Source of the DNA: Flexibacter flexilis DSM 6793
GTDB taxonomy: Bacteria > Bacteroidota > Bacteroidia > Cytophagales > Flexibacteraceae
DNA: 64,000 nucleotides
Assembly: GCF_900112255.1 (NCBI RefSeq)
Contig: NZ_FOLE01000003.1
Location: 186,001 to 250,000, forward strand
Direction of reading: 5' to 3'
The notes under the pieces are model-generated. The model saw only the letters and a program-made list of their open reading frames with translations, was not told the origin of the DNA and ran no database searches. The translations under genes and the position numbers were made by a program. Within the stretch, counting starts at the first letter, position 1; each line of letters opens with the position of its first letter. Of the stretch, positions 1,721-32,958 are shown piece by piece.

Positions 1721-3295
1721 ATGGTAGATGTAAGACCTGACGAGGTTTCTGCGATTATCAGAGAGCAGTTAGCTGGTTTCAAGACTGAAGCAGAACTTGA
1801 AGAAGTGGGTACCGTCCTTCAAATTGGTGATGGTGTAGCCCGTATTTATGGACTTTCTAAAGCACAATCGGGCGAGTTGCTCGAGTTTTCTAATGGTTTG
1901 AAAGGCATGGTGCTTAACCTTGAAGAAGACAATGTAGGTACCGTACTTTTCGGTGATTATAGTGGTGTAAAAGAAGGTGATACTGTAAAACGTACTCGTA
2001 AAATCGCTTCTATCAAAGTGGGTAACGGTATGTGCGGACGTGTTGTTGATACATTGGGTAACCCAATCGACGGCAAAGGTCCTATCAGTGGCGAGCTATA
2101 TGAAATGCCTTTGGAACGTAAAGCTCCAGGTGTAATTTATCGTCAGCCTGTAAACGAACCTTTACAGACTGGTATCAAAGCGATTGACGCGATGATTCCT
2201 ATCGGTCGTGGCCAACGCGAACTTATCATCGGTGACCGTCAAACGGGTAAAACTGCCGTTGCGATTGACGCGATTATCAACCAAAAAGAATTTTTTGAAA
2301 AAGGCCAACCTGTATTCTGTATCTACGTGGCCGTAGGTCAGAAAGCAAGTACTATCGCTCAAGTAGTGAACGCACTTGAAAAAGGTGGTGCAATGGCTTA
2401 TACGGTGGTTGTAGCAGCTTCTGCGGCTGACCCAGCTCCAATGCAATTCTTCGCGCCGTTTACGGGTGCAGCTATCGGCGAGTTCTTCCGCGACAGCGGT
2501 CGTCCTGCTTTGGTAGTATATGACGATTTGTCGAAACAAGCGGTAGCTTACCGCGAAGTGTCTTTGTTGTTGCGTCGTCCTCCAGGCCGCGAAGCGTATC
2601 CTGGTGACGTATTCTATTTGCACAGCAGATTGCTTGAGCGTGCTGCGAAAATCAACGCTTCGGACAGCATCGCACAACAAATGAACGATTTGCCAGAAAG
2701 CCTTCGCCCAATCGTAAAAGGTGGCGGTTCGCTTACGGCTCTTCCAATCATCGAAACACAAGCAGGTGACGTTTCGGCTTATATCCCAACTAACGTAATT
2801 TCGATTACTGACGGTCAGATATTCTTGGAAACAAACTTGTTCAACTCAGGTATCCGTCCTGCGATTAACGTAGGTATTTCGGTATCTCGCGTAGGTGGTT
2901 CGGCTCAAATCAAGTCAATGAAAAAAGTAGCTGGTACGTTGAAACTTGACCAAGCGCAATTCCGTGAATTGGAAGCGTTTGCTAAGTTTGGTTCTGACCT
3001 TGATGCTTCTACGAAATTGACTATCGAACGCGGTCGTCGTAACCTTGAAATCTTGAAGCAATCTCAATTCTCACCTGTTTCTGTAGAGCAACAAGTAGCG
3101 ATTATTTATCTTTCTACAAACGGTTTGTTGGACAAAGTGCCAGTAAACAAAGTGAGAGAATTTGAGAAAAAATTTGCGGAAGTTCTTTCTGCTCAACACA
3201 GAGGTACGCTTGATGCGTTGCGTGCTGGTAAGCTCGACAAAGAGCAAACAGACGTGTTGCGCCAAGTAGCTCAAGATTTGTCTAAAGTGTACTAA
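1721..3295 (+). CDS. atpA: ATP synthase F1 subunit alpha
   Basis: The 524-residue alpha subunit is the non-catalytic nucleotide-binding subunit of F1. The Walker A loop GDRQTGKT is at about residues 171-178, the Walker B strand [11 protein letters not shown] lies downstream, and the family signature with the arginine finger is in [17 protein letters not shown]. Length and domain order (beta-barrel, nucleotide-binding, helical C-terminus) are complete. Codon use appears strongly biased to a small codon set (GGT, CGT, AAA), as expected for a highly expressed gene. The catalytic beta subunit gene (atpD) is not in this window. Confidence 0.98.
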
Positions 3296-3309
3296 TTTTC
3301 TCATCATAG

Positions 3310-3350
3310 ATAAAAGCAAAGTAGCTTGTAATGAGTTACTTTGCTTTTAT
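3310..3350 (+). terminator. Hairpin between atpA and atpG
   Basis: A perfect 14-bp stem (3310-3323 ATAAAAGCAAAGTA with 3337-3350 TACTTTGCTTTTAT) has a 13-nt loop. The 3' arm is T-rich but no separate T-run follows. It could attenuate transcription into atpG or protect the atpA message; it is not an operon end, because atpG follows 18 nt later. Confidence 0.6.
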
Positions 3351-3368
3351 TAACTAATTGAAGCCAAT

Positions 3369-4265
3369 ATGCCTAGCTTAAAGGAAGTCAGAAGCAGAAT
3401 ACAATCCGTAACCTCGACACAGCAAATTACCAAAGCCATGAAAATGGTGGCTGCGGCTAAGTTGCGCCGTGCGCAAGATGCTATTATGCAAATGCGCCCC
3501 TATTCGCAAAAACTCTCTGCGGTTTTGTCGAATGTGTCAGGTAGCGTAGAAGGCTCAGTAGAAAATCAGTTTGCGCAACAAAGACCCGTAAACAAACTCC
3601 TGTTGGTACTTGTTACTTCGGACAGAGGTTTGTGCGGTGCTTTTAATGCGAACGTCGTAAAATCGGCAATAGCGTTGTTGGCGGGCGAATACGCACACGT
3701 GGACAGAGCTAATGTAGAAATATTGTGTGTTGGTAAAAAAGGCTACGAACTTATGTCGCGTAGAGGCTTTAACTGTATCCCTGACTTTGTGGGTAGTTTT
3801 GCAAGCCTAAACTTTGATACTGTACGCAAAGCGGCTGAATTTGCCATGGGCGGATTTGCTTCTGGTAAATATGACAAAGTCGTGCTTATCTACAACGAAT
3901 TTAAAAACGTGGCTACGCAAATTATCCGTGAAGAGCAGTTTTTGCCAATCGTAGAAACAGCCTCTAACGTTGATGCAACAGCTAAAGCTGGTAGCGCAAG
4001 CGTTGATTATATTTTTGAACCATCAGTAGAATATATCATAAACGAACTTATCCCTACGTCTTTGAAGATTCAATTCTACAAAGCTACGTTGGAGTCTAAC
4101 GCCTCTGAAAATGGTGCGCGTATGACTGCTATGGATAAGGCTACTGAAAATGCTGGAGAGTTGCTCAAGCAATTGAAGCTCACGTATAACCGTACACGTC
4201 AGGCGGCTATTACTAAGGAAATCTTGGAAATCGTGGGTGGTGCAGAGGCTCTAAAAGCATCATAA
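3369..4265 (+). CDS. atpG: ATP synthase F1 subunit gamma
   Basis: The 298-residue gamma subunit is the central rotor shaft of F1. The N-terminal helix (SLKEVRSRIQSVTSTQQITKAMKMVAAAKL) and the C-terminal helix (ENGARMTAMDKATENAGELL) form the antiparallel coiled coil and carry the family signature. The central Rossmann-like domain contains VTSDRGLCGAFN. It is the last F1 gene of this operon: a strong terminator follows at 4305-4339, so atpD and atpC must be elsewhere, as is common in Bacteroidota. Confidence 0.97.
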   Translation: MPSLKEVRSRIQSVTSTQQITKAMKMVAAAKLRRAQDAIMQMRPYSQKLSAVLSNVSGSVEGSVENQFAQQRPVNKLLLVLVTSDRGLCGAFNANVVKSAIALLAGEYAHVDRANVEILCVGKKGYELMSRRGFNCIPDFVGSFASLNFDTVRKAAEFAMGGFASGKYDKVVLIYNEFKNVATQIIREEQFLPIVETASNVDATAKAGSASVDYIFEPSVEYIINELIPTSLKIQFYKATLESNASENGARMTAMDKATENAGELLKQLKLTYNRTRQAAITKEILEIVGGAEALKAS

Positions 4266-4304
4266 GACTTGATAGTTTAAATAACACATTTCGATTATTC
4301 TGCC

Positions 4305-4339
4305 AAATTGCCTCGTCTGATTCTGATGAGGCAATTTTT
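4305..4339 (+). terminator. Intrinsic terminator after atpG
   Basis: The stem 4305-4314 (AAATTGCCTC) pairs with 4328-4337 (GAGGCAATTT). It extends inward by three more pairs including one G-T, with a 7-nt loop, and runs into a T-run (4335-4339). It ends the ATP synthase transcript and argues that the lysA start lies downstream at 4386. Confidence 0.85.
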
Positions 4340-4385
4340 GTTTTATACCCTTTCATTATCTTTTCCCCGAACAAATAATACTACT

Positions 4386-5621
4386 ATGCAATTTTCCCAA
4401 CAAGGCCCTTACCAAATTCAGGGCTTATCCTTAGAGGCTTTAGCCCAAGAGTACGGCACGCCGCTTTATGTTTATGATGCCGACATTATCGAAAGGCAGG
4501 TACAGAGCCTGCACACGGCTTTTGGTGGCCTAAAGCATCGCATCAAATACGCGGCAAAAGCCCTCACCAATCAGGCGATTTTGAAGCTAATGAATAAAAA
4601 TGGCGTAGAATTAGATGTTGTTTCTATCGAAGAAGCCCAATTGGGTTTGCAGGCGGGTTTTGCTCCTTCGCAAATTCTTTATACGCCTAATAGCGTGTCT
4701 TTTAAAGAAATACAAGAGGCTGTGGCCTTGGGACTTACCATTAATATAGATAATATTTCGATTCTGGAACAGTTCGGGAACGCTTATGAAAGTTCCGTTC
4801 CGTGCTGTATTCGCATCAATCCGCACATTGTGGCGGGTGGCAATGCCAAAATCCAGACGGGACATATTGATTCCAAATTCGGCATTTCTATTTTGCAAAT
4901 GAAACACGTGGCGCGTGTCGTGCGTAGCAGCAACATCAGGGTAGAAGGGTTGCACATTCATACGGGTTCGGAATTTTTGAATTCTGATGTGTTTTTGCAA
5001 GGTGCGGAGTTGGTGTTTGATGCGGCTACGGATTTCCCAGATTTGCGTTTTATTGACTTTGGAAGTGGTTTTAAAGTGGCTTACAAAGAAGGCGACCACG
5101 TAACAGATGTGATGGAATTAGGTCAGAAAATGACACAGGCTTTCAAACGCTTTTGTGCGGAATATGGCCGCGAACTGGAAATTTGGTTTGAACCAGGTAA
5201 ATATTTGGTAAGCGAATGCGGCTATTTGTTGGCCAATGCCAATGTGGTGAAAACTACGCCTTCGTCCGTGTTTGTGGGTGTGGATACAGGTTTGAATCAC
5301 CTTATTCGCCCGATGATGTACGATGCGTACCACGAAATTGTCAATATCTCTAACCCCGAAGGCGCAAAACGCATTTACACGGTGGTGGGTTACATCTGCG
5401 AAACGGATACGTTTGGCTACGACCGCAAACTTTCGGAAGTGCGCGAAGGCGATGTTATTGCGTTTTTGAATGCGGGTGCGTATGGCTTTAGTATGAGTTC
5501 TAATTATAACTCACGTTTGCGCCCTGCCGAAGTGCTGATTTATAAAGGCAAGGCACATTTGATTCGCCGTCGCGAGGTGCTGGACGATTTGTTGCGCACG
5601 CAAGTAGATTTTCAGGTATAG
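4386..5621 (+). CDS. lysA: Diaminopimelate decarboxylase
   Basis: This 411-residue PLP-dependent decarboxylase converts meso-diaminopimelate to L-lysine and CO2. It shows the alanine-racemase-type barrel with the PLP-binding lysine in KYAAKALTN (K58) and the phosphate-binding HIHTGSEF. The substrate-site segments EPGKYLVSECG and CETDTFGYDR and the C-terminal MSSNYNSRLRP are also present. An in-frame ATG exists at 4308, but it lies inside the atpG terminator and adds 26 atypical residues, so 4386 (MQFSQQGPY) is chosen. Related carboxynorspermidine decarboxylases are less likely because of the C-E-T-D-x-F segment typical of the Bacteroidota LysA branch (family knowledge). It is apparently monocistronic. 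Confidence 0.88.
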   Translation: MQFSQQGPYQIQGLSLEALAQEYGTPLYVYDADIIERQVQSLHTAFGGLKHRIKYAAKALTNQAILKLMNKNGVELDVVSIEEAQLGLQAGFAPSQILYTPNSVSFKEIQEAVALGLTINIDNISILEQFGNAYESSVPCCIRINPHIVAGGNAKIQTGHIDSKFGISILQMKHVARVVRSSNIRVEGLHIHTGSEFLNSDVFLQGAELVFDAATDFPDLRFIDFGSGFKVAYKEGDHVTDVMELGQKMTQAFKRFCAEYGRELEIWFEPGKYLVSECGYLLANANVVKTTPSSVFVGVDTGLNHLIRPMMYDAYHEIVNISNPEGAKRIYTVVGYICETDTFGYDRKLSEVREGDVIAFLNAGAYGFSMSSNYNSRLRPAEVLIYKGKAHLIRRREVLDDLLRTQVDFQV

Positions 5622-5739
5622 CCATATTCTAAACCAATATTAAGAGAACTTCATTTTGCTTTTAGATGAGGCTTCTATACATTTGGTGTGCCTAATATTG
5701 ATTTTTTGACTAAGAAAAATATTATTATTTGTAATCAAA

Positions 5740-6465
5740 ATGAGCAAAGCAAGCCTTTCTTTGGTAATACCGTGTTATAATGAATCGGGAAATATTCCTT
5801 TGATTTTCAATAAATTAGAAGAATTACTCACCCAACTTCCCGAAATAGAAATTTTGTTGGTCAATAATGGTAGCAAAGACAATAGCAAAGATGTGTTTGA
5901 GCAAGAACTCTCCAAAACGCCATTCAAGCAAATACGTGTAGTAGATGTGGCAGTGAATCAGGGTTATGGTTTCGGGATATTGTCGGGGCTGAAAGAGGCA
6001 ACCGCTCCCGTGTTGTCTTGGACGCACGCCGATATGCAAACCGACCCAATGGACGTTTTGGCGGCTTTTCGCAAATACGAAAAAGCAAATAACAAAATGC
6101 TTTTGGTAAAAGGTACGCGCCTGAAACGCAATTTTGCCGATGCGTTTTTTACGTGGGGTATGCAGGTATTGGCCAGTGTTTTGTTGGCTGTTCCTTTGCA
6201 CGACATCAACGCCCAACCCAAGCTGTTTAGCCGTGAGTTTTACGATAAATTTATGAAGCAAAATGCGCCGTTGGATTTTTCGCTGGATTTGTATGCGTTG
6301 TATTGTGCCAAAAAATATGGAGCTATCGAAACCGTTCCCGTTTATTTTAACAAACGAATACACGGCGAAGCCAAAGGCGGCGGCTCTTTCAAAACCAAAA
6401 TTAAACTCATGAAGCGCACGTGGGCATATATGCTGCAATTGAGTAAAGAATTAAAACAAAAATAA
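5740..6465 (+). CDS. GT2 glycosyltransferase, polyprenyl-phosphate-sugar synthase type
   Basis: This 241-residue GT-A fold enzyme resembles DPM1/GtrB-type transferases that move a sugar from a nucleotide donor to polyprenyl phosphate. It begins SLVIPCYNESGNIPLIF, then has LLVNNGSKDNS, VNQGYGFGILSGL and a metal-binding acidic motif in SWTHADMQTDP (about residues 95-105). It has no predicted C-terminal membrane helices, unlike GtrB, so it is the short soluble DPM1-like form. It is followed after 29 nt by the GDPD-like gene. It faces a minus-strand operon encoding GtrA and GT-C domains, which supports a shared three-component glycosylation role (inference). The exact sugar is unknown. Confidence 0.8.
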   Translation: MSKASLSLVIPCYNESGNIPLIFNKLEELLTQLPEIEILLVNNGSKDNSKDVFEQELSKTPFKQIRVVDVAVNQGYGFGILSGLKEATAPVLSWTHADMQTDPMDVLAAFRKYEKANNKMLLVKGTRLKRNFADAFFTWGMQVLASVLLAVPLHDINAQPKLFSREFYDKFMKQNAPLDFSLDLYALYCAKKYGAIETVPVYFNKRIHGEAKGGGSFKTKIKLMKRTWAYMLQLSKELKQK

Positions 6466-6494
6466 AAGGGTTCAAGACTTTTTCTATCAATAAA

Positions 6495-7079
6495 ATGCAT
6501 AAAATAGCGCACCGCATCAATACCATTGAGCAACTTAAAGCACTCACAGACAAGTCTTTGGGCGTGGAACTGGATTTGAGATACGAAGGTAAAGACTTGG
6601 TACTTCACCACGATGCCTTACGAGCTGGTGACCTTCATTTTGAAGATTACCTCAAAGAATATCACCAAACTGGCACGATGATTTTGAATGTAAAAACGGA
6701 AGGAATTGAAGAAGAAGTATTGCGTTTGCTTCAAAAGTACAATGTTACAAACTACTTTTTCTTGGATTTGAGCTTGCCTTTTCTTATCAAATACATGAAA
6801 AAAGGTGAAAGCAAAATAGCCATTCGCTATTCAGAATACGAACCCATCGAATTGGCGTTGGCTTTTGCGGGGAAAATAGAATGGGTTTGGGTGGATTGTT
6901 TCAGCCATTTGCCGCTGGATAGCCACACGTACAAGCAACTCAAAGACGCTGGTTTTAAGATTTGTTTGGTAAGCCCTGAGTTGCAAGCACATCCTTTGGA
7001 ATGGATAGAAACGTTCAAAAAGCAATTGGATGGCTTAGAAATAGATGCTGTTTGTACCAAAAAGCCAGAACTTTGGTAA
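6495..7079 (+). CDS. GDPD-like PLC-fold phosphodiesterase
   Basis: This 194-residue protein resembles a short glycerophosphodiester phosphodiesterase. Recognisable pieces are KIAHRINTIEQL near the N-terminus (HR of the HRG motif), GVELDLRYEGKDLVLHHD (E-x-D plus the second catalytic His), and a C-terminal DAVCTKKPELW. Family members usually have about 240-300 residues, so this is a compact barrel. No signal peptide is seen, so it is probably cytoplasmic. It is co-oriented with the GT2 gene, 29 nt apart, and may act on a lipid- or glycan-linked phosphodiester (inference). Confidence 0.6.
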   Translation: MHKIAHRINTIEQLKALTDKSLGVELDLRYEGKDLVLHHDALRAGDLHFEDYLKEYHQTGTMILNVKTEGIEEEVLRLLQKYNVTNYFFLDLSLPFLIKYMKKGESKIAIRYSEYEPIELALAFAGKIEWVWVDCFSHLPLDSHTYKQLKDAGFKICLVSPELQAHPLEWIETFKKQLDGLEIDAVCTKKPELW

Positions 7080-7088
7080 AAAGTGAAC

Positions 7089-7138
7089 CTAATCACTTAC
7101 GCCCCTTACCGTTTCTGGAAAATGGCGTAAGTGATTAG
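7089..7138. repeat. Inverted repeat across a convergent gene junction
   Basis: A perfect 15-bp inverted repeat (7089-7103 CTAATCACTTACGCC and 7124-7138 GGCGTAAGTGATTAG) is separated by 20 nt. The right arm lies inside the last codons of the 842-residue fusion gene and the left arm is between the two genes. It may act as a bidirectional terminator, although no T-run follows on either side. Confidence 0.6.
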
Positions 7139-9634
7139 CACTTGCATAATGCCCGAATAACCATCGCGAATCTGTGGCAGTCGCCAATTTACTTCCTCGA
7201 AGTCAGGTATATGCTCGTAGAGTATGGCCATTAGTGCATTGCGGTCTGCTTGGCCATAAAAACTGATATGTTGGCGGTTGTGTTCGTCGTAATGTACCCG
7301 AACTTCAAGGCTTTCCAACTCCCCAATTTCATTAATCACATTGTCCAGATTTATGTGATTATTGCAAATGAAATTCAACTCCAAATCTGGTTCTACACCT
7401 TCTATACCAGGTTCTGGCAACGGCACGCGACTGCTGAAACTCACAATAATATCGGCATAAATGGCTTGGGTTTGGATAAATTTCTTGCTGTCTTCTTCGC
7501 GTTGTTTGAGTTGAGTCAATACTTTTTCGCGCGAATAACCGCGTTTTTTCATGTCGCGGCGCACTTTCCAATGTACGCGCAAGGCCTCTTCGGGCTGCAC
7601 GAATATTTTCAGGTCGTAGCGGTCTCTCGATTCTTTCAGATAAAAAGTATGCAATCCTTCAAAAATGACAAGTTTGGCCGGTTTGATAAATAGCGGCAAG
7701 GTAAACGTCCCTTTGTTGTGGTCGTAGTGTCGGCGTTGTACTTTGTTGCCTTGTACGAGCTGCCCCAAATCATATACGTCCGACTGCAAATGATTGGCCT
7801 GCGGGTTAAGATGCGTATATTCTTGCCATTTGTCGTGGCCACGTTCCCATTTGTGCATATCGTCGCCGCGTACAATGGTTACATTTTTCAGGTCAAGCAC
7901 CTCGCCAATGGCTTGTGTCAGGCTGCTTTTGCCCGACCCAGAGTCGCCACCAATGCCCAACAAAAATGGCATTGTGCGCAATTTGTATTCCATGTTACGT
8001 TTTAGTCCTTTCTGATAAATCCATAACACATTGACAGCCAGTAATGTTTGTAGCACTGTGAAAGACATATACAGGATTTTGGGTGCAGGCAAACCTGTTT
8101 TGTCCATAAATCCATAAAAATTACTGCTGTTGCTGCTATGGTTATTGATTAACTGAAATACTTGTACATAATCCGACTGTGGTTGCACAAAGAAATACAG
8201 CAGATAGGAGGCGATAAATAGTCCAAAAACAATTTTGGGAGCTTCGTCTTCTTTCAGATAATAATAAATGAAGAAAGGAATAGACCAATAATGCCAGCCT
8301 TGCATCGGTGGCACAAAAAATAATATTACCCCGAAGGCAAAAGCCAAGAACATAATAAAAACGTCGCGGCTAAATGTCTTCATGGTAAGGCTACGCACCA
8401 ATACTATCAACAATGCCGCAGGCACAGCATAAAGCACCAAGTTGGGCCCAAAAGGATAAGATACATCAAATATTTTGGCTTGTTCGGTGTTGGCATAAAC
8501 CATTTTCCAGAAGCCTGCGCTGAAAGCAAAAGGCAGATTAAGCACAATAACCGTAGCGGCTATAATAGCGGCATAATAGCTTGTTTTGATGATGTTATCA
8601 TTTTGCCGATAAAGATACAAGCAGTAAAAAGGCACAACCAGCACCATATTAAATTTGGTGGCAATGGAAAGCCCCAAAAAGATAGCCGAAATGATTACGC
8701 GTTCTCTAAAAAGCGTGTACAACGAGATGAAAAGTAGCGCAATCGGCAAAGAGTCCAATTGCCCGTGCACATAACTAATGTAAATGAGTACGGGATTGAG
8801 CCAATACCACCAAAGCAATTGTACGTGTGAACGTTTGAGCCATTGGCTTAAAATGTATAAAATGACGGTGTCGGCGGCCAATAGCGGCAAACGATACGCC
8901 AAAATAGCCAAATGCCCCACTTCGTTGTAGTTCCCCGACCAAAAAGGTGACAACAATACACGCGGTATGCTCAAAATATAAAGCATTAGCGGCGGATACG
9001 GAAACGCATTGGTGCTGCCTTGTGCTACAAAATAGTCGTAAGGATTTTGGAAACCACTTGATACATAATAGTTTACAAATGGGGCAAACAAATCTACCAA
9101 GTAATTGGAAGCCAGCGTAGAAGCCAATACCAATTTGATGAGAAACCCTATCAGAAAAATAGGAGACATCAGGACGGTATAGCGAAAAAAACCACGTTGG
9201 TCGTAAACCAAAAATTTAAGACGTTGGGATAAAGTGTTGTGTTGGGCATTATTAAATACCCAGAATCGCGTTCCGATAAAGTTTATAATCGTAGTGAGAA
9301 TAATGGAAAGTAAATTGCCCAAGGGTTTATACACTCCGATTTTGTCCACGACGATGTACAAGAACACAAGCCCACAAATCAGCGAACACAAATAGACGGT
9401 GGCGTATTTCCACCAATCATTTTTGGACGCTGTTTCGGCATTGAATGTCCATTTTTTATTAAAAAAATATCCCACAACAACCCCAACCAAAAAGCCAGTA
9501 GCCGAAGCCGCCAAATAATTTATATCCAGCAATTGGAGCAGTGCATAAAACGTACTGTAATTGACGGCTGTACTAAAGCCACCGACTACTGCAAACCGCA
9601 ATATTTGTTGGATAATAGGACTTTTGAGGTTCAT
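7106..9634 (-). CDS. GtrA / GT-C glycosyltransferase / P-loop kinase fusion protein
   Basis: This 842-residue protein has three parts. Residues about 10-130 form a four-helix GtrA domain (RFAVVGGFSTAVNY, then NKKWTF, ending FIGTRFWVF), the family that flips polyprenyl-linked sugars. Residues about 150-545 are a multi-pass GT-C-like membrane region containing NPYDYF, YPPLMLY and HGQLDSLP (290-297). Residues about 556-842 form a cytosolic P-loop kinase resembling uridine kinase or phosphoribulokinase, with Walker A GDSGSGKSS (563-571), a following RGDDMHKWERG and FEGLHTFY. The start at 9634 is chosen because it lies 1 nt after the stop of the upstream HAD gene; an ATG at 9703 would overlap that gene by 68 nt. 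It is the last gene of the operon. The fusion of kinase to flippase and transferase is unusual; the phosphorylated substrate is unknown. Confidence 0.8.
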   Translation of the reverse strand: MNLKSPIIQQILRFAVVGGFSTAVNYSTFYALLQLLDINYLAASATGFLVGVVVGYFFNKKWTFNAETASKNDWWKYATVYLCSLICGLVFLYIVVDKIGVYKPLGNLLSIILTTIINFIGTRFWVFNNAQHNTLSQRLKFLVYDQRGFFRYTVLMSPIFLIGFLIKLVLASTLASNYLVDLFAPFVNYYVSSGFQNPYDYFVAQGSTNAFPYPPLMLYILSIPRVLLSPFWSGNYNEVGHLAILAYRLPLLAADTVILYILSQWLKRSHVQLLWWYWLNPVLIYISYVHGQLDSLPIALLFISLYTLFRERVIISAIFLGLSIATKFNMVLVVPFYCLYLYRQNDNIIKTSYYAAIIAATVIVLNLPFAFSAGFWKMVYANTEQAKIFDVSYPFGPNLVLYAVPAALLIVLVRSLTMKTFSRDVFIMFLAFAFGVILFFVPPMQGWHYWSIPFFIYYYLKEDEAPKIVFGLFIASYLLYFFVQPQSDYVQVFQLINNHSSNSSNFYGFMDKTGLPAPKILYMSFTVLQTLLAVNVLWIYQKGLKRNMEYKLRTMPFLLGIGGDSGSGKSSLTQAIGEVLDLKNVTIVRGDDMHKWERGHDKWQEYTHLNPQANHLQSDVYDLGQLVQGNKVQRRHYDHNKGTFTLPLFIKPAKLVIFEGLHTFYLKESRDRYDLKIFVQPEEALRVHWKVRRDMKKRGYSREKVLTQLKQREEDSKKFIQTQAIYADIIVSFSSRVPLPEPGIEGVEPDLELNFICNNHINLDNVINEIGELESLEVRVHYDEHNRQHISFYGQADRNALMAILYEHIPDFEEVNWRLPQIRDGYSGIMQVLITYAIFQKR

Positions 9635-9635
9635 A

Positions 9636-10289
9636 TTAAATTTGTTGTGTTGAAATACCCAATACTTTCGCGCCAGCGATGTCTTTTTTCTCGGAGTCGC
9701 CAATCATTAAGGCCTGTTGCGGCAAAATCTTTAGTTTGGCCAATGCTAATTCAAATATATGTGGGTGTGGTTTTTCTACACCTGCCTCCTCTGAGCTCAC
9801 AACAAAGGAAATATAAGGCGCAAGATTCCAATGTGTCAGTTTACGCAATTGGATTTGTGCCGTCAGGTCGGTTATTAAGCAAACGGGCACGCCACTTTGT
9901 TTGCATTTTTCAAGAAAAACAATCGCTTCTTCAAATACGATAGCCGTATCTAAAAACGTAGCCCAGTAAATTTCTTCGGCCTCCAGCACTAATGCGGGAT
10001 TGCTTTTGCCTGTCAGTTTTTCGATTGCTCCTTGTGCATACAGCAGTCGTGAATGTGAGGCGGCTTGTCCGTGTAACCGATGGTGTACCAGTTGCCGCGA
10101 AGCCGATAACTGTTGCGAAACCTCAATTTCGGACGCGCCTGTTTGCTTGGCCAAAAACGCTAACATGGCGGCTTGTCCCGCTTCGTGCGCGGGTTGGTAG
10201 CTGTAAAGCGTATCGTCGAGGTCTAACAAAATTCCCGCAAATTCTTGGGGGTTAATACTTAAAAAGGCAGCCAAATGATGATGACGCAT
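9636..10289 (-). CDS. HAD-superfamily hydrolase
   Basis: This 217-residue haloacid-dehalogenase-like protein is likely a sugar or nucleotide phosphatase. Motif I is LLDLDDTLY (nucleophile D23, acid D25), with a helical cap from about residue 30 to 100. Motif II is in CLITDLTA, the motif III lysine in GVEKPHPHIF, and motif IV in MIGDSEKKD. Its ATG overlaps the stop of the upstream GT-C gene (TAATG), and its own stop is 1 nt from the next start, so the three genes are translationally coupled. In context it may remove phosphate during synthesis of an activated sugar or polyol (inference). Confidence 0.85.
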   Translation of the reverse strand: MRHHHLAAFLSINPQEFAGILLDLDDTLYSYQPAHEAGQAAMLAFLAKQTGASEIEVSQQLSASRQLVHHRLHGQAASHSRLLYAQGAIEKLTGKSNPALVLEAEEIYWATFLDTAIVFEEAIVFLEKCKQSGVPVCLITDLTAQIQLRKLTHWNLAPYISFVVSSEEAGVEKPHPHIFELALAKLKILPQQALMIGDSEKKDIAGAKVLGISTQQI

Positions 10290-12040
10290 TATTGTTGGGT
10301 TAATTGATTTTGAGTTGATGGCAAACGTAAAACATAGAAAAATACCTCGTTTTTGCCGTTGCTGGTTAAGGGTAGATATTCCACTTGTGTAGATGAATAA
10401 ACTTCTATTTTCTCCAGCACTTCCGCTTGTGCTACTACTTCTTTGTCATGAGGCGTTGCCTCTTCCCACTGCTTGAGCGGGGTGCGTGTGGACAGAAAAC
10501 CAAATATAGTAGGCAACTTGTTACTGTTCGTTTTTTCCAAGTCTTCAGTGCTTTCGCAACGCTTCCAACCTAAAATTTCCAAGTTATATGTATAAAGTCG
10601 CGTTACTACATCTTTTACTTGATGTTTTTCTAAAAGTGCTAATATTTTGGGTGCATCAAAGGCTTCCGTTCTTTCTTGCTGATTTTGAACCATATACACC
10701 CCAAATAAAACCAAGTGCAAAGCTACAAAGCCAATGGGTAAATATTGTTTTACCAAATCATTTTTGATAATAGACAATAGTTTGATGAGGCCATCCACTG
10801 CGCCGACCACAAATAACGGTTGCAAGATAAGTGAATGGCGTGTAGGGCTATAAGTGATTTTTTGTAGAACAGAAAGCACTACCCATGTTCCCATTATACA
10901 AACAAACAAAGCCCAAAAGCCCAGCATTTTTTTGTCTTGTGTTTTTATGGCTGTGTATAAACCGAAGAAACACAAACCCAAAACAATAGCCGTAATAAAG
11001 TGCGTATAAAAACCCTCTGGCGTAGTGCTGGCCGTCAGCGACTCGACGATATACCAAGTATTTTTACCAAAAAAAGTAAATGCGTAGCCAATTTTTTCGC
11101 CCAAACCACCAGCAGGCAGGCCAAACAAAAATTCATGATTGGGGCCTGCATTCCATTTTACAGCCCAATTATTATCTATCTTATCTTTTAGCGTAAGAAT
11201 CAGAACTTTATAAACCACTGGTACAATAAAAATAAACGCCGCCAGCGGATATAGCAGTGCTTTGATAATTTGCTGCCTAAATTGTGTTTTGTTGTTGATA
11301 TACCAACTTACCAAAGAGCCAACAAAAAAGGAGGGTATTATTACCAAAAATTGATACTGCCCCAGCAAACAAACCGAAAGTATAAAACCCAGTATCAGAT
11401 AGTATTTGATGTCCCATTTGCGCTCCGCAATAAAAAACCAGAGAGCCGCCGCAAAAAAACAAGGACCTATGGCATACGAACTCATTTGCCCTGCATAAAT
11501 AATATTTTCCCAAGCAAAAGCAGTAAGTGCAGCTCCCAACGCGCCAGTTATCAATTTATCTGTTTGTGTTTGGCTCGGATTGATTTTATAACAAACAATA
11601 AACGAAAGTAAAACTCCTATTGCACTCAATACAAACGGAATAAAACGCCCATTTTCTAATACAGATTGGTAGCTGTGGCGGTCTGCGGCACGAATGAGAT
11701 AAGAAGACCCAATGAACTGTAAAGGAGCATACGATGAGCCTTGCATGATAGTTTCTGCATCCGAATAAGCCTTTATGATAGAGCCAACGAATCGCCCTGC
11801 CACAGGAATTTTATGGGCATGACGAAGTTTGTTATAAACCCAGTTTTCTTCTTTGGGTTTTGTGCCGTTGAGCAGATGCGCTTCCATTTCTGCTGGTGCG
11901 GTATTGACGTACATATAAGTTGCTACAAGCAAATCGTCGCAGTGTGTAAAGTGGTGCTTCCAAGACCAAACACGAATGTATAGCCCCAAAGACAGAACCA
12001 ATACTGATAAGAAAATTACTGTAGCTTTTAATGCGTTCAT
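10289..12040 (-). CDS. GT-C type membrane glycosyltransferase (GT39/ArnT-like)
   Basis: This 583-residue multi-pass protein has many hydrophobic helices. After the first helix it has HCDDLLVA with D35-D36, the place where GT-C enzymes (PMT, ArnT) carry their catalytic acidic residues in the first periplasmic loop. A soluble C-terminal region (about 460-583) follows the last helix. GT-C enzymes use polyprenyl-phosphate sugars as donors on the periplasmic side, which fits the adjacent GT2 and GtrA components. It starts 4 nt after the upstream nucleotidyltransferase stop. The acceptor is unknown; assignment to a named family is tentative. Confidence 0.65.
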   Translation of the reverse strand: MNALKATVIFLSVLVLSLGLYIRVWSWKHHFTHCDDLLVATYMYVNTAPAEMEAHLLNGTKPKEENWVYNKLRHAHKIPVAGRFVGSIIKAYSDAETIMQGSSYAPLQFIGSSYLIRAADRHSYQSVLENGRFIPFVLSAIGVLLSFIVCYKINPSQTQTDKLITGALGAALTAFAWENIIYAGQMSSYAIGPCFFAAALWFFIAERKWDIKYYLILGFILSVCLLGQYQFLVIIPSFFVGSLVSWYINNKTQFRQQIIKALLYPLAAFIFIVPVVYKVLILTLKDKIDNNWAVKWNAGPNHEFLFGLPAGGLGEKIGYAFTFFGKNTWYIVESLTASTTPEGFYTHFITAIVLGLCFFGLYTAIKTQDKKMLGFWALFVCIMGTWVVLSVLQKITYSPTRHSLILQPLFVVGAVDGLIKLLSIIKNDLVKQYLPIGFVALHLVLFGVYMVQNQQERTEAFDAPKILALLEKHQVKDVVTRLYTYNLEILGWKRCESTEDLEKTNSNKLPTIFGFLSTRTPLKQWEEATPHDKEVVAQAEVLEKIEVYSSTQVEYLPLTSNGKNEVFFYVLRLPSTQNQLTQQ

Positions 12041-12044
12041 TGTT

Positions 12045-12803
12045 TTACTTTTTTAGTTTAGCAAAAAATCCTTCCCAGTATTGGAATGTGCGCAAGTCGT
12101 CGGGTGTGCCCCAACAAATGTATTTGTCCGCCTCAAAAGCCTTTACTTTTTGTCCGCTTTCGATGAGCTCGTTCATGAGTTCATCTACATAAAACTCCCC
12201 TTTGATGCGGCGATTTTTGGCTATCATGCTTTCGGCTGCTTTCACAAAATCGCTGCCTTTTTTGAATGAAAAAGCCCCAATTACAGCGTGGTCTTGGAGT
12301 GGATTATCGCTAATCGGAATTTTTACACTCACTTTGGTAGCGTTCTGTTCATTATCCACAGCTACCCAGCCGTATTGTTCGGGTTTGGGAACAACCGTTA
12401 CGTTATGCCGAAATGTCCAAACTTGTGCGTCGGAGGCTTCAAAGGTTTTGGCAAAGGCCGTTTCTTCCCAAATCATGCCGTTATCGCTTGCGCCAATTAC
12501 CAACGGTTCGTCGTTGTTGATGTATTCTTTGGCCAACAAACAAGTAGAGGCTTGTCCTTCGGTTAGGTAATCTATCGCAATAACGGTGGAGTTTGGAAAC
12601 CACTTTTTTAATTCTTTATCTATCTGATATTCAGTTATATGAAAGTCTCTGCAAACAAAAATATAATGGTCTGCTTTGGGCAAACTCTGCGCGGCACGCA
12701 CCACCATTGGCACGCCCATCACCTCAATAAGTGGCTTTGGTGTGGTATATCCTTCTTGTTTGTAGCGCGAACCTTCGCCCGCCATTGGGATTAATGCTAT
12801 CAT
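12045..12803 (-). CDS. Sugar-nucleotidyltransferase-like protein A
   Basis: This 252-residue NTP-transferase fold protein activates a sugar or alditol phosphate with an NTP. The signature PMAGEGSRYKQEGYTTPKPL (residues 6-25) gives the G-x-G-x-R nucleotide loop and the catalytic lysine K23. A metal-site-type aspartate is in GASDNGM, and the C-terminus has KAFEADKYICWGTPDDL, as in small bacterial sugar nucleotidyltransferases. It is a clear paralogue of the next gene upstream (12843-13628), with the same N- and C-terminal motifs, suggesting an old tandem duplication. Its substrate probably differs. Confidence 0.8.
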   Translation of the reverse strand: MIALIPMAGEGSRYKQEGYTTPKPLIEVMGVPMVVRAAQSLPKADHYIFVCRDFHITEYQIDKELKKWFPNSTVIAIDYLTEGQASTCLLAKEYINNDEPLVIGASDNGMIWEETAFAKTFEASDAQVWTFRHNVTVVPKPEQYGWVAVDNEQNATKVSVKIPISDNPLQDHAVIGAFSFKKGSDFVKAAESMIAKNRRIKGEFYVDELMNELIESGQKVKAFEADKYICWGTPDDLRTFQYWEGFFAKLKK

Positions 12804-12842
12804 ACTGGGTATTTTTGTCTTAAATAAAAGATGCTTTACGGC

Positions 12843-13628
12843 TTAGTGGCCTTGAGGTTTGAGGGCAAGGCTTTCAAATATTTCGCTCCAATAGTTGTAT
12901 TCTTCCAAATCTTGCGGCGTTCCCCATTGGCAGAAATGCGGAATTTTATCGTAAACCAATACTTTAAGCCCATCTCTCACCAACAAATTATAGGTTAAGC
13001 TCGCATAATATTCACCGTTTAGGTTTACATCTTCGGCGATTTGCTGCTGATAATATTTTTTGAGTAAAGCTCCACTTTTAAAATAATACATTCCCGAAGA
13101 GTGCTTGTCCAATTTCTTATCGGCATTCCACGCAAACTTTTCACGGATTTCGGTCAGATAGCCGTTTTCGTCCGTTTTGCAACTCGCGTATAGGTTGATG
13201 GCAGGCAACAAATGCGGATGAAATCCTGTGTAACAAGGAATTGCACCTTCGCAGCCATCGGCCAGCACCGTTTTTTTGAAATCTTCATAATCCCAATCTT
13301 GGAAATAATCGCAGTAGCTCACGATGCACGGCTCGTTGTCGTCGATAGCATCTAATACTTTGACGATAGAACCCGCAGGCCCCGATTTCTCGCCTTTTAC
13401 CGTCCTGATTTGGGCTGTTGGTTTGAGGCGTTGGAGTGTTTCCACCACGGGCGTTGTATTTACGTGCTCTTCGCGCACCACAAACAGAAAATTATCTTCG
13501 TTGGGAAACAGATTACAAACCCATTCGATAATAGGCTTCCCGTGTACGGGTATTAGTGGTTTAATGTCCTTATAACCAGCTCTTACAAATCGTGAGCCTT
13601 CGCCCGAAAGAGGAATTATTATTTGCAT
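12843..13628 (-). CDS. Sugar-nucleotidyltransferase-like protein B
   Basis: This 261-residue NTP-transferase fold protein is paralogous to its downstream neighbour. It has PLSGEGSRFVRAGYKDIKPL (catalytic K23), a metal-binding-like motif in SYCDYFQDWD and the terminal VYDKIPHFCQWGTPQDL. It lies 39 nt upstream of protein A and 9 nt downstream of the class II aldolase, so all three are probably co-transcribed. Two nucleotidyltransferases in one operon suggest either two activated donors or one that has become regulatory; both keep the key residues. Confidence 0.8.
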   Translation of the reverse strand: MQIIIPLSGEGSRFVRAGYKDIKPLIPVHGKPIIEWVCNLFPNEDNFLFVVREEHVNTTPVVETLQRLKPTAQIRTVKGEKSGPAGSIVKVLDAIDDNEPCIVSYCDYFQDWDYEDFKKTVLADGCEGAIPCYTGFHPHLLPAINLYASCKTDENGYLTEIREKFAWNADKKLDKHSSGMYYFKSGALLKKYYQQQIAEDVNLNGEYYASLTYNLLVRDGLKVLVYDKIPHFCQWGTPQDLEEYNYWSEIFESLALKPQGH

Positions 13629-13637
13629 AACTTTTGA

Positions 13638-14690
13638 TTATTTTTTGAGTAAAGCTCTGCGATAGGCTTCACTTTCCATGTTGTTGATGTAGTTGGCTTG
13701 GGTTTGGCCAATAAAATTAGGAGCACTGATATGGCTTCTCAAAAACAAATACGCCAATAGCGTTTCTTCTAAAGTAATGGCTTCTTTGAGCGTTTCCACC
13801 AGATAAGTAACACCGAAGTTTTCGCTATGAATATTTATTTTTTTGTCTGGATTTGGTGCAGACCTGATGGCGATATTCCCAGAAAAAAATACGACTTGGT
13901 CGGGGAAAAGCACTTGTTCAAAAAAGGCTGCGTCGCTGACGTGCAAAGCACTGAGCCACTGAGCCAACTCCGCGTTTTGGCTTTCAAAAAGTTTGTTTTC
14001 CTTGTGGGTTACGGCTGGGCGAGGGTAGGGCAGATTGATGTCAAAATATTTTTTCAATATATCGTTTACTTGCTCATCTAACGCCAAAGTACTTGCTACT
14101 TCGTCACCCGTAGTAACCAAACCATGATTTTGCAAGAAAAAAACAGATGGCACACAGCCATTTTTTTCAATAAAATCATTTTTTGCTTTCAGGATAGATT
14201 GACTCAAACCAAAACCTGGGTTTGCATACGGAATGTAAATAGGCCGAATGGCTGTATTTTCGAATATTTGGGACAAAAGCGACTCGCAATCTTGGGCGCA
14301 ATTCACCAAATTACTATAAACACTGTGCGTGTGATACACTACTTTTTCCAAAACGGCATGAAATCCAGTTTCCATACTTGGCCTTAGCACGGGATAATTG
14401 CCTGATTTGTCCACACATTCGCCCACAAATTTGGAAGTAATATCTTCTTGCTCTTTGGTCGGATTCTCGTTAATAGAATCATTAAACAATTGAATTACAG
14501 GCTTATAATTGACCATTGTATAAGCCTGCGATTCTGTCATCTCGGACAGCAAAAAACCAGAGGCTTTGATGGCCATTAGTTCTTCATTGATTTTGAAACT
14601 TGTATTGCCGCCGCCGCCTTGCACCAAATCCGATTTGCTGCCCAACAAACGCGATGCCGCCAAAAATGATTGGAATGTGTTTGTACTCAT
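13638..14690 (-). CDS. Class II aldolase/adducin-family protein
   Basis: This 350-residue protein resembles the aldolase part of rhamnulose-1-phosphate aldolase and related sugar-phosphate lyases or epimerases. It shows LVQGGGGNTSFK (phosphate-binding loop), the zinc-ligand pair in VVYHTHSVYSN and a third His in QNHGLVTTG. It is the first gene of the six-gene glycan operon. An ATG at 14735 would add 15 hydrophobic residues; 14690 (MSTNTFQSF) better fits a cytosolic enzyme. It may make or interconvert the phosphorylated sugar that the downstream nucleotidyltransferases activate (inference). The substrate cannot be read from sequence. Confidence 0.75.
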   Translation of the reverse strand: MSTNTFQSFLAASRLLGSKSDLVQGGGGNTSFKINEELMAIKASGFLLSEMTESQAYTMVNYKPVIQLFNDSINENPTKEQEDITSKFVGECVDKSGNYPVLRPSMETGFHAVLEKVVYHTHSVYSNLVNCAQDCESLLSQIFENTAIRPIYIPYANPGFGLSQSILKAKNDFIEKNGCVPSVFFLQNHGLVTTGDEVASTLALDEQVNDILKKYFDINLPYPRPAVTHKENKLFESQNAELAQWLSALHVSDAAFFEQVLFPDQVVFFSGNIAIRSAPNPDKKINIHSENFGVTYLVETLKEAITLEETLLAYLFLRSHISAPNFIGQTQANYINNMESEAYRRALLKK

Positions 14691-30790: not shown

Positions 30791-31570
30791 TTACGCGCCG
30801 TAACCTTTCATCATTCCGCGCTCTGAGTTGCGGAAAAAGTTAAGAATAAGGTCTCGTTCGTCGGACGCGGCAAATTCCATTTCGATTTTGTCCATGGCAG
30901 TCGTGTTGTTCACGCCGCTCAAGTACAAAATGCGGTAAATTTCTTGCACTTGCGAAATTTGTTCGCTGGTAAAACCTCTGCGACGCAAGCCAATGGAGTT
31001 AATTCCCGCATAGCTCAACGGTTCGCGAGCGGCTTTTACGAATGGCGGAACGTCTTTGCGAACCAATGAGCCACCCGAAATCATGGAGTGTGCGCCAATC
31101 TTAACGAACTGATGCACAGCACTTGAGCCGCCGATTACAACCCAGTCGTCCACTTCTACGTGGCCAGCCAACTGTACTGTATTGGCAATGATGCAATTAT
31201 CTCCGATTATACAATCGTGTGCCACGTGCACGTAAGCCATAAGCAAACAGTTAGCACCGACTACGGTTTTGTATTTGTCTTTTGTACCGCGACTGATGGT
31301 TACACACTCGCGAACTACAGTGTTGTCGCCCACTACGGCAATGGTATCTTCGCCTTCAAACTTAAGGTCTTGAGGCACAGAAGAAATCACCGCACCAGGG
31401 AATACTTTTACGTTTTTACCGATACGCGCACCTTCCATAATGACGGCGTGCGAACCAATCCAACTTCCTTCGCCAATCTCTACGTTTTTATGAATAACGG
31501 CGAAGGGTTCTACTACCACGCTGGGAGCTAATTTGGCTTCAGGGTGAATATATGCTAAGGGTTGTATCAT
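30791..31570 (-). CDS. lpxA: UDP-N-acetylglucosamine O-acyltransferase
   Basis: The 259-residue LpxA performs the first step of lipid A synthesis, moving a 3-hydroxyacyl chain from ACP to UDP-GlcNAc. It begins IQPLAYIHPEAKL and consists of left-handed beta-helix hexapeptide repeats, with the catalytic His in YVHVAHDCIIG. The LpxA C-terminal helical domain starts near INSIGLRRRGF. Its ATG overlaps the stop of lpxC/fabZ (ATGA), so translation is coupled. It is the last gene of the lipid A operon in this window. Confidence 0.95.
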   Translation of the reverse strand: MIQPLAYIHPEAKLAPSVVVEPFAVIHKNVEIGEGSWIGSHAVIMEGARIGKNVKVFPGAVISSVPQDLKFEGEDTIAVVGDNTVVRECVTISRGTKDKYKTVVGANCLLMAYVHVAHDCIIGDNCIIANTVQLAGHVEVDDWVVIGGSSAVHQFVKIGAHSMISGGSLVRKDVPPFVKAAREPLSYAGINSIGLRRRGFTSEQISQVQEIYRILYLSGVNNTTAMDKIEMEFAASDERDLILNFFRNSERGMMKGYGA

Positions 31571-32958
31571 GATTTTCTAACAATGCTTGCCGACATAACC
31601 GCCTCACATACAAGGTTTCCAGCTACAAAAGCCTGACCGTGCATTTTAGCGATGCCGCGTTTGATAGGAGCTAAAAGTTCACACTTAAAAATAATGGTAT
31701 CACCTGGCACAACCATTTTCTTGAAACGGCAATTTTCGATGGCCAAAAAGTATGTCCAGTAGTTTTCGGGGTCTGGCACAGTGCCCAACACCAAAATACC
31801 GCCTGTTTGCGCCATAGCTTCTATTTGCAAAACGCCTGGCATAACGGGGTTGTTCGGAAAGTGACCTTGAAAGAATGGTTCATTAAACGTAACATTCTTT
31901 ACACTTGCTACCGTTGTCTCGTCTAAGTGAATGATTTTATCAATCAACTGGAACGGGTAGGCGTGCGGCAAACGTTGGTAAATTTGTTGCGCTGTAAGTA
32001 CTGGCGTTTCGCGTGGGTCGTAAGTAGGGATGGCTTTACGACTTTGCTCTTTCATTATTTTTTTAATCTTTTTGGCTAAACCAATGTTGGCCGCATGGCC
32101 AGGGCGTGCTGCCAAGATTTGAGCTTTCAGCGGGCGACCCACCAAAGCCAAATCACCGACCAAATCAAGCAATTTGTGGCGTGCTGGCTCATTTTTATAA
32201 CGCAATTCTACGTTATTGAGTGTTCCTTCCGACTTTACTTCGATTTTTGGTTGTTTGAACAAATCGGCCAAATACGCCAATTCGTCATCTTTTACGATTC
32301 TGTCCACAATCACAATGGCGTTGTTGAGTGCGCCACCCTGAATGAGGTTTTGTTTGTAAAGATATTCCAGCTCATGCAAAAAGCAGAATGTGCGGCACGA
32401 AGCAATTTCGGGAACAAATTGGCCAATATTAGTGATAGAAGCGTGTTGGCTACCCAATACTGGCGAGTTGTAATCTACCATTACCGTGAGGCGATAATCG
32501 TCCAGAGGCAAAGCCGCAATTTCTACGTTGCGTTCTTCATCTTTGAAGAAAATTCCTTCGGGTACTTCAAAATAGTCGCGTAGAGCGTTTTGCTCTTCTA
32601 CGCCAACCGATTGTAAGGCATTTACAAACTCAATGGAACTTCCGTCCATGATGGGCGGCTCTGGGCCGTCGAGTTGAATCAGAACATTGTCAATTTCCAG
32701 CCCCACCAAAGCGGCTAAGGTATGTTCTACGGTGTTTACGCGTGCACCATTTTTTTCGATGGTTGTGCCACGCGATAAGTCCACCACATAATCCACATCT
32801 GCTTCTACAGTGGGCTGGTCGGGCAAATCAACGCGCTGAAACACAATGCCATGATTGGGTGGCGCAGGTAAAAATGTCATATTGGCAACCACACCCGTAT
32901 GTAGGCCGACTCCCGAAACGGTTACAGGAGCTGTAATGGTATGCTGTTTAGTAGTCAT
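31567..32958 (-). CDS. lpxC/fabZ: Bifunctional LpxC deacetylase / FabZ dehydratase
   Basis: This 463-residue fusion combines two lipid enzymes. Residues 1 to about 300 are LpxC, the zinc deacetylase committing UDP-3-acyl-GlcNAc to lipid A: HTLAALVGLEIDN holds a zinc His and HKLLDLVGDLAL the H-x-x-x-D zinc ligands, with a further active-site His in RPGHAANI. Residues about 315-463 are FabZ, the 3-hydroxyacyl-ACP dehydratase, with the catalytic His in LPHAYPFQLID and the Glu in VMPGVLQIEAMAQ. The fusion is characteristic of Bacteroidota and couples the use of hydroxyacyl-ACP for lipid A and membrane lipids. Confidence 0.95.
   Translation of the reverse strand: MTTKQHTITAPVTVSGVGLHTGVVANMTFLPAPPNHGIVFQRVDLPDQPTVEADVDYVVDLSRGTTIEKNGARVNTVEHTLAALVGLEIDNVLIQLDGPEPPIMDGSSIEFVNALQSVGVEEQNALRDYFEVPEGIFFKDEERNVEIAALPLDDYRLTVMVDYNSPVLGSQHASITNIGQFVPEIASCRTFCFLHELEYLYKQNLIQGGALNNAIVIVDRIVKDDELAYLADLFKQPKIEVKSEGTLNNVELRYKNEPARHKLLDLVGDLALVGRPLKAQILAARPGHAANIGLAKKIKKIMKEQSRKAIPTYDPRETPVLTAQQIYQRLPHAYPFQLIDKIIHLDETTVASVKNVTFNEPFFQGHFPNNPVMPGVLQIEAMAQTGGILVLGTVPDPENYWTYFLAIENCRFKKMVVPGDTIIFKCELLAPIKRGIAKMHGQAFVAGNLVCEAVMSASIVRKS

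Follow-up and report, generated by a model that had tools for sequence, protein, structure and literature searches.

What does a kinase do at the end of a membrane glycosyltransferase? This question is raised by a protein encoded in a 64,000-nucleotide stretch of the Flexibacter flexilis DSM 6793 genome (contig NZ_FOLE01000003.1, positions 186,001 to 250,000; hereafter the window), for which a first-pass annotation had proposed a GtrA flippase domain, a GT-C glycosyltransferase domain and a P-loop kinase in one polypeptide. For this protein and its relatives we computed the domains and folds, the conservation of the kinase site and of the surrounding gene cassette, their co-occurrence at the genome level, and the absence of RuBisCO from the genome. 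The fused kinase is, judged by its sequence and predicted structure, complete and of the phosphoribulokinase (PRK) type, and its junction with the glycosyltransferase, written GT-C::PRK below, is an old fusion. The conserved surprise is GT-C::PRK together with its cassette, not the attachment of GtrA. Its recurrence with sugar-activating genes in distant bacteria and archaea points to an undescribed route to a lipid-carried cell-surface sugar.

A PRK-type kinase in one frame with a GT-C glycosyltransferase

The protein is read from an ATG-started open frame of 842 codons plus stop on the minus strand (window positions 7106-9634), which is uninterrupted, as had been noted earlier without naming a strand. 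The plus strand over the same positions is stop-rich, and a plus-strand reading was rejected because of these stops. All three proposed domains were recovered in the one chain, the two ends by Pfam and the middle by predicted fold, and the motifs HGQLDSLP and GDSGSGKSS occur just as they had been reported. The GtrA match (PF04138) scored 91.7 bits against a gathering score of 26.1, and the PRK/uridine kinase family of Pfam matched residues 559-732 (E 2.2e-36). The region between them had no Pfam match; its GT-C fold is seen in the predicted structure, an AlphaFold2 model built from a 59-sequence alignment with a mean predicted local distance difference test (pLDDT) score of 85.6. The GtrA part of this model is poor (pLDDT mostly below 50 in residues 1-72) because the other alignment rows lack GtrA. 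In the loops picked from the model, positive charge alternates in the way that would be expected with the HGQLD loop outside and the kinase domain on the cytosolic face.

Among proteins of solved structure, the kinase is closest in sequence (phmmer) to a cyanobacterial PRK (1.5e-41) and an archaeal PRK (3e-34), with the best uridine kinase at 5.8e-17. By structure comparison, residues 554-841 match PRK 9qko with Z 31.1 (2.3 Å, 279 of 302 residues), the C-terminal domain included, while uridine kinases align over ~195 residues with Z ~22. Published work is cited here by PubMed Central (PMC) number. In the archaeal PRK of Kono et al., D-ribulose 5-phosphate (Ru5P), its phosphate or ATP is bound by His55, Arg59, Tyr98, His100, Lys151 and Arg154 (PMC5241800). 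A gap-free alignment places H594, R598, Y637, H639, K690 and R693 of the fusion protein at these six positions, and none of the six varies in any of the 59 family members. The proximity to PRK in sequence and fold, together with the retention of the six site residues, argues for a kinase of the PRK type. Both domain folds, the P-loop and the six Ru5P/ATP residues are shared with the archaeal (5b3f) and cyanobacterial (9qko) enzymes; unlike these, the window kinase is fused to a membrane glycosyltransferase and stands in a glycan cassette, in a genome without RuBisCO.

Two functions of the wider kinase family were considered and rejected. A Calvin-cycle PRK was set aside because the RuBisCO large subunit (PF00016) had no match in the own genome, in a search that was positive in 5 of 14 control genomes. 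It had also been suggested that a uridine-kinase-like domain recycles the nucleoside released by glycosylation. The two kinases do belong to the same Pfam family, but the fusion has a Ru5P site, and the uridine kinase of the organism (L107) is a separate gene that differs at four of the six positions (Y/N/F/R versus H/R/H/K in the fusion). Uridine kinase was rejected on these grounds, and nucleoside recycling seems extremely improbable. Nothing in the results speaks for the recycling of a polyprenol, which had been suggested as well. The remaining role suggested at first, phosphorylation of a sugar precursor, is the most likely one. A RuBisCO-linked PRK of another Bacteroidota genome (L108) keeps all six residues and, in addition, the equivalent of archaeal Arg62, to which we return below. 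It is found in a row of genes for the RuBisCO large subunit, phosphoribulokinase, transketolase, class II aldolase and GlpX (G095:C7:96001-106000, positions 2261-9740) that looks like a Calvin-cycle operon in Bacteroidota.

The GT-C part of the predicted structure (residues 150-557) was compared with solved GT-C enzymes, giving Z 29.0 for glycosylphosphatidylinositol (GPI) mannosyltransferase I, 26.6 for ALG3, 24.9 for ALG6, 20.1 for PimE and 18.6 for ArnT. In this model, the nearest folds are those of enzymes that use polyprenyl-phosphate sugars. The best match is 9wno, GPI mannosyltransferase I with dolichyl-phosphate mannose (347 aligned residues, 3.8 Å). With GPI mannosyltransferase I (PIG-M), ALG3, ALG6 and PimE the domain shares the GT-CA fold (Z 20-29) but only 12-14% identity. 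HGQLD is almost invariant among the 59 family sequences. Within residues 174-216, the stretch searched for the catalytic acid of the first extracytoplasmic loop, no acidic position is invariant, residue 181 being Asp or Glu in 42 of 59 sequences. All 59 sequences have an acidic residue at the positions of D255 and D294.

The fusion is old and widely distributed

A scan for two peptide patterns in contigs from 84,980 species, which is not a full census, returned 65 loci, many of them truncated at a contig end. In 63 of the 65, a single frame encodes both GT-C and kinase. Of the two exceptions, L094 is cut by a contig end, and L091 is split and looks frameshifted, its kinase frame continuing without a stop for at least 75 bases before the apparent start, into the GT-C frame. 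The suspicion of an assembly join or frameshift at codons 545-556 of the window protein was rejected on this count. By record label, the bacterial carriers are Bacteroidota, Pseudomonadota (Acetobacter, Aureimonas, Martelella, Brucella pecoris, SAR86 and Rickettsiales bins), Patescibacteria, Paenibacillus, a spirochaete symbiont and a Myxococcales bin, and the archaeal carriers are two Aenigmatarchaeota bins; several records are metagenome bins, and their organism labels may be wrong. The fusion is rare in Bacteroidota, where it was found in 3 of 395 genomes, the own genome included, a fourth match being a RuBisCO-linked PRK. Full-length members are present in 5 of 390 genomes of the window's order; three more matches there span little beyond the kinase part.

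In a tree of the family, the 14 Pseudomonadota rows form a group that includes the spirochaete symbiont (support 90). Two Cytophagales rows are joined by Paenibacillus, Patescibacteria and archaea (support 93) inside a larger, mostly Bacteroidota group. The window protein is in none of the starred groups, and its nearest relatives are unsure. Left out of the tree were L094, L056, L082, L099, L091, L003 and L066. The 59-row alignment was made without L003, L032, L036, L053, L056, L058, L066, L082, L083, L091, L094, L098 and L099, these rows being short, cut, split, near copies or Calvin-type PRK; L032 and L036 are represented in it by L002 and L004. L032, L036 and L066 lie in genomes G007, G027 and G003, and L097/L098 repeat L059/L083.

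GtrA is placed differently. The window is the only one of 69 anchored loci in which it lies in one frame with GT-C; at 24 of the 68 others it has a frame of its own (22 without the repeated records L097/L098). Both sides of the junction are in one frame in the window, and the N-terminal D-K/Q-x-G of the GT-C family occurs at residues 143-146, so that no frameshift is seen at the GtrA join, which rests on a single assembly. GtrA plus GT-C plus kinase was rejected as a general architecture because GtrA is joined only here: the GT-C::PRK part of the three-domain protein proposed at first is thus widely shared, and the GtrA join is not.

A conserved cassette accompanies the fusion

The first-pass annotation had described the gene and its domains correctly, but had missed both the conserved GT-C::PRK unit and the precursor genes that travel with it (Table 1). 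Profiles of the window neighbours were run over the 69 anchored loci (window included, many cut short). They matched an aldolase-like protein in 59, nucleotidyltransferase B in 55, GT2 in 53, the HAD phosphatase in 52, the glycerophosphodiesterase (GDPD)-like protein in 49 and nucleotidyltransferase A in 45; since the A and B profiles can hit the same genes, the split between them is rough. At least 7 kb of flanking sequence is available on both sides of 39 loci. In 30 of them the HAD, aldolase, nucleotidyltransferase, GT2 and GDPD-like genes are all present, accompanied by GtrA in 15, and GT2 is present at 33 of the 39. The cassette matches lie on the strand of the anchor in 328 of 334 cases (window and repeated records left out). 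In the window, the GT2 and GDPD-like genes are on the opposite strand and convergent with the fusion. GT2, GtrA and GT-C are encoded together within the window as a three-component glycosylation set, in line with the earlier assignment of GtrA and GT-C to lipid-linked glycosylation.

Table 1. Domains of the fusion protein and genes of its cassette in the window.
Feature	Window positions	Strand	Residues	Basis
GtrA-type four-helix flippase domain	9236..9634	-	1-133	Pfam PF04138 13-127, E 4.8e-26
GT-C (GT-CA fold) glycosyltransferase domain	7988..9187	-	150-549	predicted structure; HGQLD
Phosphoribulokinase-type catalytic domain, predicted cytosolic	7430..7975	-	554-735	Pfam PRK, phmmer, site residues
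PRK C-terminal domain	7109..7429	-	736-842	structural match to 9qko over 554-841
HAD phosphatase, ribulose-1,5-bisphosphate 5-phosphatase-like	9636..10289	-		NCBIfam NF053830 E 3.9e-48, below curated cutoff
Polytopic membrane protein, 583 aa, tentative second GT-C type glycosyltransferase	10289..12040	-		eight hydrophobic stretches
Sugar-phosphate nucleotidyltransferase A	12045..12803	-		PF00483 2e-9; NCBIfam rmlA_long 1.1e-14, below cutoff
Sugar-phosphate nucleotidyltransferase B	12843..13628	-		PF12804 2.5e-8; conserved in cassette
Class II (FucA/RhaD-type) aldolase-like protein	13638..14690	-		PF00596 3.6e-17
GT2 glycosyltransferase, polyprenyl-phosphate-sugar synthase type, without C-terminal membrane anchor	5740..6465	+		PF00535 5.9e-17
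Small GDPD-fold (GDPD-like) protein, 194 aa	6495..7079	+		predicted structure

The best curated model for the window HAD is NF053830, the haloarchaeal ribulose-1,5-bisphosphate 5-phosphatase, with 164 bits compared to 39 bits for the next HAD in the genome. It is the best model in all 21 HADs scanned singly, at 117-200 bits (that of the window and 20 of the remaining 51), and it matches all 52 HAD members. At the sequence level, the match marks nearness to that phosphatase, not identity with it. The HAD motifs (DxD, Asp-Thr/Ser, Lys, acidic) are invariant in the 52 members at D23, D25, D141, K173, D198 and D203. Five genomes with a HAD-less locus carry the HAD elsewhere, at 237-287 bits, the next HAD in any searched genome scoring 89; the off-locus gene lies beside a GDPD-like gene in G003 and G007, and beside GtrA in G027. 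In the Aenigmatarchaeota loci L069 and L093 a HAD of another type directly follows the fusion, and L093 and its genome are without the usual HAD. The haloarchaeal ribulose 1,5-bisphosphate (RuBP) 5-phosphatase of this model was reported to yield ribulose 1-phosphate (Ru1P) by nuclear magnetic resonance, and its gene adjoins one for a FucA-type Ru1P aldolase (PMC9700705).

In the aldolase-like protein, H120, H122, H189 and E107 are invariant in 38 sequences. We take the three histidines to be zinc ligands and E107 to be catalytic. The nearest solved relative is the uncharacterised 3m4r, followed by fuculose phosphate aldolases. Among solved structures, the GT2 is closest to dolichol-phosphate mannose synthase and ArnC; hydropathy shows one hydrophobic stretch, at residues 135-153, and none at the C-terminus, and a stretch above the same threshold occurs in 11 of 50 GT2 family members. 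The two nucleotidyltransferases are joined in one frame of ~550 aa in 13 loci, namely eleven Flavobacteriaceae, Paenibacillus and one other Bacteroidia bin; G464 is a further joined case, open at a contig end.

The model of the GDPD-like protein (pLDDT 96.7) matches best the GDPD 2pz0 (Z 17.2, 182 of 194 residues, 2.5 Å). None of the 47 small GDPD-like sequences reached PF03009 in Pfam, one giving a stray TIR_2 match, so that the GDPD type is visible by fold only. A true GDPD (PF03009 in six of six) comes next to the fusion, after it, in L044, L052, L054, L062, L063 and L084, and it replaces the aldolase in all of these but L062. Close relatives of the GDPD-like protein (at least 49%) occur in three of the 395 Bacteroidota genomes, the same three that carry the fusion; two distant relatives (34-35%) in the 395 genomes lie in other glycan loci. 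Modules of a GDPD-like protein, a different HAD and one or two nucleotidyltransferases are also found in glycan loci without the fusion (L105, positions 9889-11895, and L106, positions 9849-13040), which makes the link between GDPD-like proteins and nucleotidyltransferases wider than the fusion cassette.

A proposed route to a lipid-carried pentose

We propose, with confidence only slightly above even, that the fusion combines the membrane end and one precursor enzyme of a GT2/GtrA/GT-C three-component glycosylation system with the following route. The fused kinase would add a phosphate to C1 of a pentose 5-phosphate, most likely Ru5P, and the HAD would take the 5-phosphate off the resulting 1,5-bisphosphate, leaving a pentulose 1-phosphate able to close to a furanose ring. 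The paired nucleotidyltransferases would activate this product, or a derivative made by the aldolase, to a nucleoside diphosphate (NDP)-sugar; the soluble GT2 would put the sugar on polyprenyl phosphate; GtrA would flip the lipid-linked sugar; and the GT-C domain would pass it to an acceptor outside. A tethered kinase would link the supply of precursor to its consumption at the membrane. We infer each of these chemical steps, as well as the sugar and the acceptor: the kinase step rests on residues and fold, the HAD step on family resemblance, and the later steps on gene context. In the heptose route, a 7-phosphate sugar is phosphorylated at C1, after which a HAD removes the 7-phosphate, and the kinase-then-HAD logic proposed here resembles this order.

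PRK is normally taken to indicate CO2 fixation. A broader claim, which we advance tentatively and hold somewhat short of even, is that PRK has a second, biosynthetic life outside carbon fixation in bacteria and archaea, in which, fused to a GT-C transferase, it would make RuBP as the committed precursor of a new polyprenyl-phosphate-borne ketopentose or ketopentose-derived donor, with no need for RuBisCO. In a bolder form of this claim, the tethered kinase would use its phosphate-binding site on a sugar phosphate already linked to a lipid at the membrane. If a conserved PRK-type kinase does serve a glycan cassette, RuBP gains another use, and genome-based calls of autotrophy could mislead. Lipid-linked glycosylation would have a further feed beside NDP-hexoses and phosphoribosyl pyrophosphate (PRPP), and orphan HAD, nucleotidyltransferase, GT2 and GDPD-like genes across phyla would be tied into one testable pathway.

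Several points weigh against the proposed route. Its weak point lies in the sugar: the anomeric carbon of a ketose is C2, so that a nucleotide attached at C1 does not make a normal glycosyl donor, and we know of no precedent for the conversion of an NDP-pentulose to a GT2 product. This difficulty calls for a phosphodiester product, an aldose substrate, or new chemistry of the aldolase or nucleotidyltransferase. The kinase itself departs from the archaeal PRK at the second arginine of the phosphate site, Arg62, which the authors of the archaeal study call not conserved in all PRKs (PMC5241800). Asp601 takes this position in the fusion protein, and among the 59 relatives it is Glu in 30 and Asp in 17; unlike the archaeal arginine, a mostly acidic position may, by sequence, mean a substrate other than Ru5P. 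The NCBIfam model PRK07429 scores 193.8 bits, under its curated cutoff of 236, and its match spans 554-735 only, so our claim is a PRK-type kinase and not membership of the curated subfamily. In the same way, the 164 bits of the window HAD stand against an NF053830 cutoff of 330, all 21 singly scanned members fall below it, three further HAD models find the full set of 52 as well, with weaker best E-values, and NF053830 has matches below cutoff in 14 of 14 control genomes.

Gene content adds to these objections. Four of the 39 well-flanked loci are without HAD, nucleotidyltransferases, GT2 and GDPD-like genes and have only the aldolase, in one case with GtrA; GtrA itself is at only 16 of the 39, with at least one further genome (G027) having it elsewhere. 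A genome search did not find the HAD anywhere in G446, G447 and G451. The aldolase was not found in four of the five draft genomes that have a true GDPD in its place, and the fifth has a 74-bit match only, which weakens the case for a class II aldolase as an obligatory core enzyme. This aldolase could, moreover, cleave Ru1P instead of building a sugar, and the route does not account for the GDPD-like protein or for two nucleotidyltransferases.

The ketose problem would disappear if the kinase had changed its substrate to the 5-phosphate of an aldopentose, ribose or arabinose, and placed the new phosphate on the anomeric hydroxyl. The HAD would then give a pentose 1-phosphate that becomes an NDP-pentose and finally a polyprenyl-phosphate pentofuranose, as an alternative to the PRPP route of known pentofuranose systems. 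This would suit the chemistry of GT2, GtrA and GT-C without difficulty, three-component systems of other bacteria are described as adding pentofuranoses (PMC11127046), and it is favoured by the acidic residues that 47 of 59 relatives have in place of Arg62. The retention of the six Ru5P/ATP residues speaks against such a drift, as do the company of an aldolase of the ketose-1-phosphate type and the substrate range reported for the archaeal PRK, which was active on Ru5P alone among nine substrates and accepted neither ribose 5-phosphate nor uridine (PMC5241800). We consider this version unlikely. A more doubtful possibility is that Ru1P is converted to CDP-1-ribulose, or a reduced derivative, and moved with its phosphate onto a glycan; the GDPD-fold protein would then edit or recycle diesters, and GT2, GtrA and GT-C would add another sugar. 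A nucleotidyltransferase that makes CDP-6-fructose from CTP and fructose 6-phosphate, at a primary hydroxyl of a ketose, offers a precedent (PMC10918830), and both the GDPD-fold protein and the six loci with a true GDPD after the fusion fit this idea. However, no dedicated phosphotransferase or reductase was recognised in the conserved cassette, although no targeted search was made.

Two further explanations were weighed. RuBisCO-free pentose bisphosphate breakdown, in which Ru5P would pass through RuBP and Ru1P to dihydroxyacetone phosphate and glycolaldehyde and the fusion would just couple carbon flow to glycosylation, leaves the nucleotidyltransferases, GT2 and GT-C without a role and meets the same four draft genomes in which the aldolase was not found. 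Bacteria, furthermore, usually own a pentose phosphate pathway already. The pairing of a HAD with a FucA-type aldolase, as in halophilic archaea (PMC9700705), is in its favour, and we regard it as quite improbable. A non-catalytic kinase domain that senses ATP or a pentose phosphate and controls GT-C would make sense of a tether to a transferase that presumably needs no ATP itself. The P-loop and the active-site Asp, His, Lys and Arg residues are, however, conserved across bacteria and archaea, which renders a pure sensor highly improbable.

Relation to known systems

No description of the GT-C::PRK cassette, or of such a system, was found in the open-licence literature of PubMed Central. The proposed route shares a polyprenyl-phosphate-type GT2, GtrA and GT-C with the three-component periplasmic systems (GtrA/GtrB/GT-C, and the GT136 pentofuranose system of PMC11127046). 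In contrast to GtrB-type systems, the window GT2 is without C-terminal membrane helices, and unlike in the known three-component systems the GT-C carries a fused kinase. The pentofuranose systems known so far start from PRPP (PMC11127046), where the window would use a kinase and a HAD to make the precursor. The non-carboxylating pentose bisphosphate pathway of haloarchaea likewise combines a RuBP 5-phosphatase-like HAD with a co-encoded FucA-type aldolase; as described in PMC9700705, however, it is catabolic and obtains RuBP from ribose 1,5-bisphosphate isomerase, not PRK, whereas nucleotidyltransferases and glycosyltransferases follow in the window cassette. The Campylobacter CDP-6-fructose pathway has a capsule-locus nucleotidyltransferase acting on a ketose phosphate, to which those of the window may be likened, but involves a hexose, with a reductase next and no kinase fusion (PMC10918830).

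Other features of the window

The 583-aa membrane protein encoded between the HAD and nucleotidyltransferase A has a sub-threshold PMT_2 match only (E 0.014). The profile comparison of the 69 loci found it in no other anchored locus. Other loci carry other large membrane proteins nearby. Further along the window, at positions 31567-32958 on the minus strand, lies a frame that resembles an LpxC-FabZ fusion. Such fusions are, we presume, common in Bacteroidota.

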